Below, one piece after another: positions 389-14,137 of a DNA stretch of 64,000 bases (positions within the stretch are counted from its first letter, which is position 1; the number at the start of each line of letters is the position of its first letter). The stretch comes from Phycisphaerales bacterium (GTDB lineage: Bacteria > Planctomycetota > Phycisphaerae > Phycisphaerales > SM1A02). A program made the position numbers and the translations under genes. The notes beneath the pieces were generated by a model that was not told where the DNA came from, did not search any database, and saw only the letters and a program-made list of their open reading frames with translations. Where the stretch lies: the NCBI GenBank assembly GCA_029260575.1, contig JAJDDB010000004.1:1-64000 (forward strand). Reading direction: 5' to 3'.

Positions 389-701
389 TTGATTCCAAGC
401 GTCAGTCGCGGATTCCGGAGCGCTATTCGACTACGTTCGGGTGTTTGATTTGAATTCTCGGATCTCAGCCGCATATTCCCAAGTTTTAGACTCTAACTCC
501 CGGGTTTTAGATTCCAAGACCCACGTTTCAGTTGCTGATCCCCGGGCGTTAGCCACTTACTCCCGGGAAAACGAACCTCATTGCCGGGTTTTGAACGCTT
601 GCGCCCGGGAGTTTGAGACGTTCGCCGTAGGTTACAAGTCTGTCTCCCGAGTGGCAGTAGCAAATTCCCGAGAGTCCGCGACTGATTCCCGGGTTTTGCG
701 C
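389..701. repeat. Degenerate tandem array, 21-nt period (array 1)
   Basis: From 450 to 701 the DNA falls into twelve consecutive 21-nt units without phase loss. Each unit has a variant of TTCCCGGGTTTT at the same offset, for example units starting at 492, 576 and 681. Looser copies with 19-23 nt spacing reach back to about 389. Because 21 is a multiple of 3, frames stay open on both strands and give artificial-looking heptapeptides: xxxSRVL on plus, KPGNxxx on minus. I do not regard these as genes. The remaining part of this gene-free stretch (290-388 and 702-760) holds nothing I recognise apart from a possible ribosome site before 761. Confidence 0.8.
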
Positions 702-760
702 GGTCAGTGTGCGCGCCTGTCAACGACCTCGAAACGAACCGCGCCCGTAAGGGAGCATGA

Positions 761-11137: not shown

Positions 11138-12877
11138 TCAACGCCATTGTAGCTGGTCTAAGAGTTCAGCCTTGAAGCCATTGGCCACTTCAACAAAGCG
11201 TGTGTATGAACCACCGAACAGTCCAGCGCTCAAGGGCAGCCAGTCGTCACCATCGCGATTCGCTTCTTCCAATAGCTCGCTGAACGGATCAGTTGAATAG
11301 GTGTGCGAGTTATATTTCCAAGCAAAACGACCTGGATGACCCCAATTCATATTCGTGAGATCAGCATGACACAGTGCATAGAGAAGCTCAAAGCGATCGA
11401 ATGTGTGCTCGTAGCGGCTTCCCAATTGGAGAACGTCTTCAACAATCGGCTGCAACCGCATGAATAGGTACTCGCTCGAAGGCGTGTATTTCTTCTCAAA
11501 TTCCGGAATCAACTTGAAGGCGTTCTTGCGGTTGACGCCAAGCATCGCTTTCACTGTGGCTTCAAGTACTGTGCAAGTCTTGCCAAGGCGATCAGACCTA
11601 ACAGAGGTCGTAAAAAGACTGTGGAGACTGATGTAGTTTTCGCCATCGATCGCCGCCATACCACCAGAGTACATTGCGAGCAACATCGGATAGGATCGAA
11701 GTGCGAGCCACAAGCTGAGCCCACCCTGAGGTTCGATTTCACCGGCCAAGACATGAACAATCTGTTGAGTGTTTGCTTGTTGATCTTGGTCTGCCCAGCG
11801 ACCTAAAAGAATCGAGACTGTCAACAGGTCTGAAACAGCTTCTTCATAGTTCTTGAGTCGGGTTACGAAATCATCTGGTTCGATGCCCCCGCCTTGCACT
11901 GAGAAGTCTGCTTCGCCGAGCCTCTCCTGCGCGATTCTAAGTTCGCGCTTCACCAAGTTGTGCAATGGAATGCGATACTGTTGATCCGACAAGTAAGTTT
12001 CAAGTTGCTGGCGGAGTGCAGGTGTCTCAAGAATCTCAGGAGGGGCCGACAGGTCGGTCGGTATCTCTATCAATAGATTTTCTGTGTCTTTAGTTTCGTC
12101 AACATTTTGTGGCACATCTGGGATTGTAAAAAAGAAGTCGCCGTCACCAGCGAATTGCGTTCGGTGTGGTGACTGTTGCGAGCGGTTATCCTTGGCGACT
12201 TTGTCGTAGACATATGCCATTACCGCTTCCGCATGAATCATGCCGTCTTTGTTTGGCATGAAGCCGCTAAGAGCATCTAAAAGATACCCCGTGAAAATTG
12301 AATGACCGTTTCGCGGACCTCCTCCATCTGCGACAACCTGATTACCCTTTCCCGCAGCCAACACTTGTCTTGAATATCGTGCCATCATGTCGTGAACAAA
12401 CCGAGTACCACCTGGACGGAGTCCTCGCATAGCCATAAGCCCGCTATAGCATGCATCCATGATGAACAACACGTGCTTCGCGCGAATCATGCACGATCTG
12501 TGCACGAGATCGTCCCACGGAAGCAATGTACATGTATTTTCAGAGTCACCCTCAACCGGAATTAAGAATCCAAAGTCGCGATCATTGACAGTCACGGTAT
12601 GCCCGTGTCCTGCATAAAAAATGACTACACGGTCATCATCGCCCGTAACACGATGGAGCTTGTCCATTTCTTGCTGAATTCGCGGTAGGGTGGCGTCACC
12701 GTCAAGCAGGATTTGAACGTTCTCAAGTGGAAAGCCAAACTGCTTTATCAACTGTTGGGCAAACACATTGGCATCGTTGCAAGCATAATCGAGCTTAGCT
12801 TCATGCCGATATTCATTTACTCCTACCACTAGTGCCCAATGGTTGTCATATGTTGGGTTGTATTTTGGCTGAGGCAT
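11138..12877 (-). CDS. Caspase-family (C14) peptidase with an uncharacterised C-terminal region
   Basis: A 579-aa protein with an N-terminal caspase-like fold. HWALVVGVNEY opens the domain; the catalytic His lies in FYAGHG (H91) and the catalytic Cys in IMDACYSG (C143). The first 260 residues are therefore an apparently active metacaspase/ortho-caspase domain. Residues of about 290-579 (alpha-rich by appearance, with QQLETYLSDQQYRIPLHNLVKREL and a later Trp/Tyr-rich end) match no family I recognise. There is no signal peptide, so it is probably cytoplasmic. Base composition reads lower in GC than its neighbours. It is a single gene, with repeat array 2 starting about 90 nt upstream. Bacterial caspases of this kind often act in abortive-infection or stress death circuits, but no partner gene is evident. 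Confidence 0.88.
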   Translation of the reverse strand: MPQPKYNPTYDNHWALVVGVNEYRHEAKLDYACNDANVFAQQLIKQFGFPLENVQILLDGDATLPRIQQEMDKLHRVTGDDDRVVIFYAGHGHTVTVNDRDFGFLIPVEGDSENTCTLLPWDDLVHRSCMIRAKHVLFIMDACYSGLMAMRGLRPGGTRFVHDMMARYSRQVLAAGKGNQVVADGGGPRNGHSIFTGYLLDALSGFMPNKDGMIHAEAVMAYVYDKVAKDNRSQQSPHRTQFAGDGDFFFTIPDVPQNVDETKDTENLLIEIPTDLSAPPEILETPALRQQLETYLSDQQYRIPLHNLVKRELRIAQERLGEADFSVQGGGIEPDDFVTRLKNYEEAVSDLLTVSILLGRWADQDQQANTQQIVHVLAGEIEPQGGLSLWLALRSYPMLLAMYSGGMAAIDGENYISLHSLFTTSVRSDRLGKTCTVLEATVKAMLGVNRKNAFKLIPEFEKKYTPSSEYLFMRLQPIVEDVLQLGSRYEHTFDRFELLYALCHADLTNMNWGHPGRFAWKYNSHTYSTDPFSELLEEANRDGDDWLPLSAGLFGGSYTRFVEVANGFKAELLDQLQWR

Positions 12878-12965
12878 TGCTGCTTAAGAATACAGCTACA
12901 TCGATAGAGCTGCCAAACGGAAACAATTTGCTCTTTTATACACCGAAAGAAGACTTCTTTCTTCA

Positions 12966-13196
12966 GCGTTCATACCTCTTTTCTGGCCGTTCATAGCTCT
13001 GTGCGCCTCGTTCAGAGTTCTTTACGCGCCGTCTATTGCTCTGAACGCGGCATTCATAGTTCTTTTTTCGGCGTTCATAGCTCTGAATGCGGTGTTCATA
13101 GCTCTACATTTGTTGTTCATAGCTCTTTCCTCAGCGTTCATACTTCCCTGCGCGGCGTTCATAGCTCTTGGTTTCGCGTTGATACTTCCTTTTTGG
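12966..13196. repeat. Degenerate tandem array, 21-nt period (array 2)
   Basis: Eleven consecutive 21-nt units each consist of a conserved block close to GCGTTCATAGCTCT followed by 7 variable nt, with no phase slip from 12966 to 13196. A weaker unit may precede it at 12945. The best copies start at 13071, 13092, 13113 and 13155. Read on either strand the array stays open (HSSxxGV on plus, RAMNAEx on minus), which is a consequence of the period and not evidence for a gene. It fills the gap between the caspase gene start and the plus-strand gene at 13445. The rest of that gap (12878-12965 and 13197-13444) shows only the ribosome site of the latter. Confidence 0.88.
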
Positions 13197-13444
13197 TGAC
13201 TTTCGCAGACCGGGTCCTGCGCAAGCATCTCTCGGGCCGCAGTTTAGATTTGAATCTGTCGCGCAGGCACTGTTGAACGCTGAGCAATTCGCGCTGGGAA
13301 TGTTCTCGCCATTTGCGCAGTTTTGTGACTTTGTATGAATCAAGTTGCATGTCGCGTCGAGCAATGCATCGAGCGGGGACGTGCAGCGGCGTGTGTTGCT
13401 GGCGGACTCCGCAGAGGAGGGGTCATTTCAAAAGGAGCATTGCG

Positions 13445-14137
13445 ATGCCTCTTGATTATCTCCCCAGCCGCGAAGCGGATTTGCTTGCGTGGACCAATAG
13501 TTTCAGCTCACAAATTACTGCGGACCCGGTAGTTTTCGGCCTTGATGCCATTCAGGCAACCACGCTTGCGACACTGTTGAGCGATTTCCAGGCGACGTAC
13601 GACGCAGCAACGAACAACAACACGCGGACACCTGCGATCATTGTCGCCAAGCGCGATGCCAAGAATGCATTGATCGCGAAGATTCGTGAACTGGCCGCCA
13701 TCATTCAGGCAGACCCGAGTGTGACGGATCAGCAAAAGAGCGGTCTTGGTCTGACAGTGCGCGACAGTGAACCAACGCCTGTGCCGGTGCCGAAGACGCG
13801 GCCGGGCATACAGATATTTTCGTCCGTCGGGCGGAGCGTGACCATCAAGCTCAGTGATGTGGAGAACCCGGATTCGCGCGGCAAGCCCGAAGGTGTCGAT
13901 GGCGCGACGGTGTTGACATTCCTCGGCTCGACGCCGCCTGCGCCCGAAGACATCCCTGCGTGGACGTTTCAGGGCAATACGGGTCGAACATCGTTGACGG
14001 TCAACTTTGATCCGTCGGTGGAATCGGGCACGACCGCATGGTTCACTGCGTTCTGGTTCAACACGAGAAAGCAATCCGGGCCGGCAACGCTGCCGGTCAG
14101 CACGCAGATTCCGGGCAGTCTGCCGCAGGCTGCGTAA
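13445..14137 (+). CDS. Planctomycete hypothetical protein with a C-terminal beta domain
   Basis: A 230-aa protein. ATG 13445 follows AAGGAG by 8 nt, a strong ribosome site. The N-terminal half is helical and charged (READLLAWTNSFSSQITA, AKRDAKNALIAKIRELAAII) and ends with LGLTVRDSEPTPVPVP. After this proline-rich hinge comes a beta-rich region with TFQGNTGRTSLTVNF and TAWFTAFWFNTRKQSGP, compatible with a fibronectin-III-like or other Ig-like fold. No signal peptide is visible. I recall this architecture as a recurring hypothetical family in planctomycetes and some other phyla, without an assigned function. A strong terminator follows directly, so it is monocistronic and possibly well expressed. 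Confidence 0.75.
   Translation: MPLDYLPSREADLLAWTNSFSSQITADPVVFGLDAIQATTLATLLSDFQATYDAATNNNTRTPAIIVAKRDAKNALIAKIRELAAIIQADPSVTDQQKSGLGLTVRDSEPTPVPVPKTRPGIQIFSSVGRSVTIKLSDVENPDSRGKPEGVDGATVLTFLGSTPPAPEDIPAWTFQGNTGRTSLTVNFDPSVESGTTAWFTAFWFNTRKQSGPATLPVSTQIPGSLPQAA

Follow-up and report, generated by a model that had tools for sequence, protein, structure and literature searches.

Two tandem arrays with a period of 21 nt lie in the stretch of DNA analysed here (64,000 nt, hereafter the window), and one of them precedes a small gene with paralogs elsewhere in the genome. The relevant features of the window are the following:

452..703, forward strand: second 21-nt array, about 12 units near TCCCGGGTTTTAG, gene-less, a member of the array class by period only
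11138..12877, reverse strand: divergent caspase-domain gene, a neighbour outside the element
12947..12967, forward strand: possible degenerate first unit AAGAAGACTTCTTTCTTCAGC, in register with the array
12968..13198, forward strand: eleven-unit tandem array with a 21-nt period and the core GTTCATAGCTCT, 5′ of the FN3-family gene
13199..13444, forward strand: spacer of 246 nt between array end and start codon
13445..14137, forward strand: family gene for the 230-aa protein P0001, with a helical N-domain (about 1-105) and an FN3 domain (about 113-227)

Each unit of the array at 12968-13198 comprises the 12-nt core GTTCATAGCTCT and nine looser bases, the last few of which are partly kept (GC or GGC). 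The ten spacings returned by a motif scan all equal 21 nt and the register is unbroken. The preliminary description had placed an eleven-unit 21-nt array upstream of the gene at 13445, which is confirmed with an exact span of 12968-13198; its division of the unit into a 14-nt block and seven variable nucleotides is better replaced by 12 + 9. In a scan of the 64-kb window over periods 12-60, period 21 reaches an identity of 0.661 over 168 nt at this array, against a mean of 0.274 (SD 0.045), and periods which are not multiples of 21 all stay at or below 0.458. Tandem Repeats Finder detects both window arrays, each in pieces. A whole-genome search found one sequence relative of the array, a gene-less array on another contig (C27:775730-775921), and none was found in 30 related genomes. 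Near the array, Rfam yields sub-threshold matches only; one tRNA in the window reaches its gathering score. A match to osmY RNA at 13383-13447 ends at the start of the family gene, and with 25.2 bits against a gathering score of 46.9 it probably reflects chance.

The array at 452-703 (from about 437 in the scan) is the second outlier of the same period scan, at 0.53. The period scan and the comparison of units bear out the earlier statement that the two window arrays have a common period and unrelated letters. Furthermore, a period scan of a further 400 kb of the same genome reveals new 21-nt arrays, again of unrelated letters, in two loci (L039 and L049), and 21-nt arrays of other sequence are present in relatives too. 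The array class is thus defined by period and not by letters, as had been proposed; the outcome named as speaking against it, a lack of other 21-nt arrays in this genome and its relatives, is clearly contradicted. The arrays of the window, L039 and L049 each lie directly upstream of homologous genes. For the array at 452-703, a search of the genome matched only itself, with no cognate array elsewhere, and no family gene other than 13445-14137 was found in the window, so none lies near this array.

The divergent gene on the other side of the array at 12968-13198 encodes a protein with a Pfam Peptidase_C14 domain (E 1.2e-15), the C-terminal half of which matches the PADLOC candidate defence family PDC-S65 (E 2.8e-43). 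The preliminary description had placed the array upstream of both this caspase gene and the gene at 13445, as a possible carrier of regulatory sites. A link to the caspase gene was dropped, as arrays go with the family gene and not with the far-side gene. Because paralogs carry upstream arrays whatever lies on the far side, the array belongs with the forward-strand gene 13445-14137 rather than with the caspase gene. A defence-island setting, prompted by PDC-S65, was also considered and rejected: PADLOC matches are scattered, and none is common to more than two among 82 neighbours at 14 family loci of the same genome. Pfam assigns these 82 neighbours to ordinary housekeeping families, none common more than twice among the 25 commonest listed. 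Neighbour genes were called by a custom script and scanned as a single set. Since the nearest neighbours show no recurring partner, the recurring unit is the array plus one gene.

The linkage of arrays to family genes was scored with a fixed criterion: an identity of at least 0.5 over 84 nt, with 20 or 21 as the best of periods 19-23 and with alternation at 42 or 40 nt allowed. An array within 1 kb upstream is found in 47 of 63 family loci (17/21 in the same genome, 30/42 in relatives), and 37 of the 63 still carry one at a stricter cut-off of 0.6. The criterion favours periods of 20 and 21; when the range of periods is widened to 15-33 or 12-44, the top score still falls on 20, 21 or 42 in most loci with an array. 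The 63 leave out three loci at contig ends (L070, L071, L097), two with short upstream sequence (L129, L142), a fragment (L116) and repeated places; they include two overlapping loci (L064 and L079), and the 47 include L075, though its array is barely one unit long once trimmed. In the 47 loci the order is array then gene on one strand. The distance from array end to start codon has a median of 198 nt (quartiles 129 and 246; 40 array-bearing family loci), and the arrays comprise 5-22 units of 20 or 21 nt.

As background, 464 kb of the same genome (the window plus the further 400 kb) supplied 420 tiles of 1.06 kb, eight of which pass. Three of the eight lie at family genes, one at the array 452-703, three in long-ORF stretches of L044 and one in L054. 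All three family genes in these 464 kb plus L037 carry arrays. Among fresh loci from other genomes, 14 of 23 pass upstream, or 12 of 21 once two repeats of earlier loci are removed, and 1 kb downstream of fresh family genes 2 of 22 pass, at 0.50 and 0.51. The criterion fails in 16 of the 63 family loci and in 9 of the 21 fresh ones. One of these nine, L216 in genome G634, carries a 22-nt array (score 0.93) 100-256 nt upstream of its family gene, so that the period can leave 20-21. In L122, L207 and L210 two unit types alternate and 42 nt therefore outscores 21. Taken as a pair, array and family gene look like an undescribed two-part genetic element; a search of the open-access literature, with subscription journals and preprints lying outside it, found no description of such an array or gene family.

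The genome contains 23 matches to P0001 at an E limit of 1, and the two weakest have values near 0.1. Family matches occur in 11 of 61 relatives, 15 of 392 phylum genomes and 61 of 397 class genomes, often several per genome; in the phylum and class searches up to seven candidates were scored per genome. The named records with matches are MAGs of Planctomycetota, mostly Phycisphaerae. No relatives were found in phage and plasmid records searched with P0001, nor in viral contigs searched with two alignments. Pfam gives nothing above cut-off for P0001 (sole match DUF2808, E 0.084) and no match for one paralog, NCBIfam gives no match for P0001, and PHROGs and PADLOC give none for P0001 or one distant member. 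In these four collections, no match of P0001 to a transposase, nuclease, Nop-domain, ribbon-helix-helix, replication-initiator or toxin family was accepted.

An AlphaFold2 model based on ten sequences (mean pLDDT 87, pTM 0.50) predicts helices to about residue 100, followed by a beta domain. Residues 113-227 match the FN3 beta-sandwich (Foldseek E 1.5e-5; VIA-align Z 12.0, rmsd 2.0 over 92 residues). Modelled alone, the N-domain reaches a pLDDT of 84 with four or five predicted helices; Foldseek finds no PDB match for it at E 0.001 or better, an absence which proves nothing. The family is not uniformly basic, as the pI of 55 members ranges from 4.4 to 11.6 (4.9 for the window copy).

The spacing of the units is close to invariant. 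When 39 of the 47 arrays were scanned for the motif together with 100 nt of flank on each side, 339 spacings of 19-27 nt were obtained: 276 of 21, 61 of 20 (four of them inside 21-nt arrays), one of 22 and one of 27. Besides these there are ten spacings of 41 or 42, where a unit is skipped, eighteen between 8 and 15, mostly half-spacings adding to 21, and eleven long ones due to stray motif matches in the flanks. The ungapped array criterion favours regularity, and the motif scan could still reveal shifts inside and beside the arrays. From one unit to the next, a mean of 41% of the positions differ (42 arrays), and untranslated DNA with so many substitutions is expected to show many indels. 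The near absence of indels despite this divergence therefore indicates that spacing is constrained.

As 21 is divisible by three, the arrays might encode a seven-residue repeat peptide. For the window array the frame test alone decides nothing, since stop codons are missing from two sense frames. Across the class, the period is 20 nt in 7 of 47 arrays and, among 36 arrays of 21 nt, five have no open frame on either strand and eleven no open sense frame. Translation as the common purpose of the arrays is unlikely, and we regard a repeat peptide as an extremely improbable explanation. The preliminary description had named translation as an outcome against its proposal; for the class as a whole, the 20-nt periods and closed frames answer in the negative.

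Neutral minisatellites, generated by slippage beside a recombination-prone gene family and functionless, would account for several properties of the arrays: the units within an array derive from one another by tandem duplication, some arrays show hardly any variation between units, and the letters vary by locus. Slippage, however, gives no reason for periods of 20 and 21 nt only at scores of unrelated loci, nor for the avoidance of indels at 41% unit divergence. In addition, one unit has outlasted its spacer. This is seen in L061 of the same genome and L082 of a different bacterial family, the proteins of which are 70% identical: the unit is common to both and the spacer hardly aligns. We hold the neutral explanation to be very unlikely.

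Array and protein vary together. Across 44 arrays, the more alike two proteins are, the more alike their arrays tend to be (Mantel r 0.29, p 0.0005). Mean array similarity is 0.575 in the 17 pairs with proteins more than 60% identical, against 0.32-0.39 in lower identity bands. An exception is L067/L073, where arrays are alike (0.78) and the proteins just 30% identical. The 20-nt period requires two changes on a quick protein tree, and 0 of 500 shuffles give as few (six rows, the seventh, L089, being too short). Loci with and without an array do not form clusters on the protein tree (10 changes against a shuffled mean of 10.2). About 17 array types exist within the same genome.

Some units recur away from any family gene. 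The genome was queried with 15 gene-linked arrays, the window array and the array at 452-703, and seven gene-less arrays repeat a gene-linked unit, for 7 of the 16 gene-linked arrays queried:

C3:66681, C16:72734, C27:219143, C2:125596, C27:133747, C27:304097, C27:775730: gene-less cognate arrays

No family gene was found with the family model within these seven loci (3.0-3.2 kb each). In five of them, the likeness to the gene-linked partner is limited to the array. Gene-less L163 has both array and leader in common with L077 (463 bp at 88.6%), and L159 and L080 have a weak common stretch beside the array. As two of the seven thus have common flanks with a gene-linked counterpart, the gene-less arrays could have been left behind when a gene was lost. 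A search with 13 arrays in seven relatives gave one clear gene-less cognate (L190 in G057) and a second candidate near a contig end (L193). One gene-less array of the same genome, L164, apparently occupies the interval between a convergent pair of genes and not a promoter (ORFs judged by eye). Another, L162 (C16:72734-72970), precedes a gene with an Abi_C domain.

A locus of gene and array together with scattered gene-less arrays of matching unit is also the arrangement of a selfish or mobile repeat maintained by its linked protein, as in REP/RAYT systems, with the gene-less arrays as non-autonomous copies. REP/REPIN sequences are outlined in PMC3733652 as palindromic units of 20-40 bp, and REP/RAYT likewise combines one gene with repeats and gene-less repeats of matching type elsewhere. 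The 463-bp stretch of L163 and L077, the patchy multicopy spread of the family (61/397 class genomes) and the broken copies in L074 and L080 fit such a view. Unlike REP/RAYT, the arrays described here are tandem and in strict register, and the linked FN3 protein has no Y1-type transposase match in Pfam or NCBIfam, nor any other transposase or nuclease match. Gene-less arrays number only about one per type, and the phage, plasmid and viral collections, searched with P0001 or one alignment each, contain no matches. A mobile repeat is in our opinion quite unlikely. In L074 (C28:21785-24961), the broken family gene stands behind a mosaic of L063-like and L060-like units, and a further stretch of the locus matches the downstream side of L060 at 89% identity.

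Whether the partner of the array is DNA or RNA can be approached through the symmetry of the units. Among 48 arrays, 12 have a consensus more palindromic than column-permuted controls (p ≤ 0.02), and in a fresh set 7 of 13 arrays are palindromic at p ≤ 0.05; the window array is not (control p 0.57). RNA-hairpin units had been suggested by eye and by a phase-fitted test, in which the phase was chosen for pairing and both-side changes numbered 123 against 68 in shuffles. With the phase taken from column composition alone, paired cells number 1259 against 1254 expected (42 arrays) and the excess of both-side changes vanishes in this unbiased repeat, so that hairpin units were withdrawn. Mismatches of G-U (130) and A-C (132) are equal. 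These compensation tests cover pairing within units, as distinct from pairing between units and from pseudoknots. If the arrays acted as folded RNA from one fixed strand, compensation and a surplus of G-U would be expected; the lack of compensation, together with G-U equal to A-C, matches the expectation for independent half-sites in a DNA dyad. Palindromes without compensatory changes or an overall strand bias favour a DNA target over a structured RNA.

In the opposing model the transcribed array would supply a repeat RNA with which the protein pairs, in the fashion of type III toxin-antitoxin systems, where the protein binds unit-length RNAs from a repeat array upstream of its gene. This model draws on the order of array then gene on one strand in the 47 loci. 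It also draws on folding. Compared with dinucleotide shuffles, 48 arrays fold better on both strands (mean z -1.98 and -2.01), the window array much better as sense (z -5.4) than as antisense (-1.2) and L140 also in favour of sense, and long hairpins link adjacent units in many arrays. Against this model, the overall strand preference is absent (p 0.41), as are a G-U surplus and a compensatory excess. A terminator-like site between array and gene exists in just 4 of 45 loci (simple rule; 0 on the other strand and 1 in the upstream control), no toxin-family match is found and the proteins are often acidic. As in ToxIN, a tandem array of locus-specific type lies directly upstream of a small protein gene. 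ToxI repeats are, in the account given by PMC8860590, RNA pseudoknots present in 3 to 5.6 copies in E. coli clusters; the arrays described here, in contrast, count 5-22 units of 20/21 nt, with no compensatory pairing, general terminator or toxin-family match. We find an RNA partner rather unlikely. A terminal inverted unit at the gene-side end of the array, striking in L074 and L084, was set aside as a general feature (4/40 against 0/40 at the other end).

Ordinary cis regulation would interpret the same palindromes differently. A regulator from another locus would recognise the array, either as an operator with many sites or as a repeat that tunes the promoter, and gain or loss of units would tune expression by two-turn steps. 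The position of the array 5′ of the gene, at a median of 198 nt in the 40 loci, is consistent with this, as are the palindromic trend, the near-fixed register and the fresh expansion of some arrays (L126 and L141, at 0.95-0.96). One common regulator cannot, however, easily read unrelated units, and about 17 types would need as many regulators. Moreover, a recurring neighbour gene was not found, and gene-less L164 apparently lies between convergent genes. A separately encoded regulator seems to us a fairly improbable solution.

The reading that we favour, tentatively and at somewhat less than even confidence, is that the array provides a helically phased DNA platform, to which a locus-specific partner, in the simplest case the neighbouring protein, would bind. 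The array would act in cis as double-stranded DNA, offering evenly phased candidate sites linked to the helical-FN3 gene. Since 20 or 21 bp approximate two turns of B-DNA, bound copies would be aligned on one face of the helix, which could allow cooperative assembly. The binder would probably be dimeric, a proposal made because many units are palindromic. Locus-specific recognition is expected because units differ between loci while related proteins keep related units, and the family protein is proposed as the binder because it is the only locus-specific factor found. Each family protein, or a complex containing it, may thus read its own array; it would control its own gene and dock at the few gene-less arrays with a matching unit. 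The DNA-binding role that we infer draws on the genetics of the loci and not on fold or charge. Against the DNA platform stand the lack of a recognised known DNA-binding fold, the pI range of 4.4 to 11.6 and the array of the window itself, which is non-palindromic and folds better as sense RNA. The loci that fail the array criterion (16 of 63, and 9 of the 21 fresh ones) and the possible origin of gene-less arrays through gene loss also count against it.

A bolder version of the DNA platform, which we consider doubtful, is a system of private addresses. About twenty paralogs in one genome would each read only their own phased 20-21-bp array, present upstream of the gene and again at one or two distant sites that lack a gene; protein and address would coevolve, and a filament on the array might mark, tether or silence these sites.

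Among the known systems close to a DNA platform are ParR/parC centromeres and iterons, in which direct repeats of about 20 bp lie upstream of the gene whose protein binds and polymerises along them. Tandem repeats of about 20 bp upstream of a gene are common to these systems and to the arrays described here. The latter differ in being chromosomal, with many paralogs per genome, an unrelated unit at each and no recurring partner gene. Unlike ParR, P0001 has no ribbon-helix-helix match in Pfam, and its N-domain has four or five predicted helices. Partition loci of this kind also include a linked motor ATPase gene; at the family loci, the Pfam view of the 82 neighbours extends to the 25 commonest families.

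Two further systems combine short repeats with dedicated proteins. TIGR-Tas is presented in PMC12045711 as a constant/variable short-period array beside a single protein gene, with repeat letters which vary by locus; its units yield 36-nt guide RNAs with two spacers, and the Tas proteins carry a Nop domain (PMC12045711). Here, in contrast, the unit spacing is 20 or 21 nt (a few arrays alternate at 42) and P0001 has no Nop domain at the Pfam cut-off. CRISPR arrays have repeats of 24-48 nt, unique spacers and cas genes, whereas the unit described here is 21 nt long and includes nine loosely conserved bases; no cas-like neighbour is present among the caspase and family genes.

Ordinary tools miss this element because its letters differ per locus and the period alone is common. 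If the pairing of protein and array is specific, one genome would hold many natural and distinct protein-target pairs, a test bed for the coevolution of specificity, and the element may represent a new mode of organisation or regulation of bacterial chromosomes. Should the partner be RNA, or the arrays be selfish, they would still represent a new kind of repeat-protein element in Planctomycetota.

Lastly, Ala-Ala forms the C-terminus of 38 of 55 family proteins, often with Leu or Ile two to three residues earlier. Such ends may resemble ssrA-type degrons.
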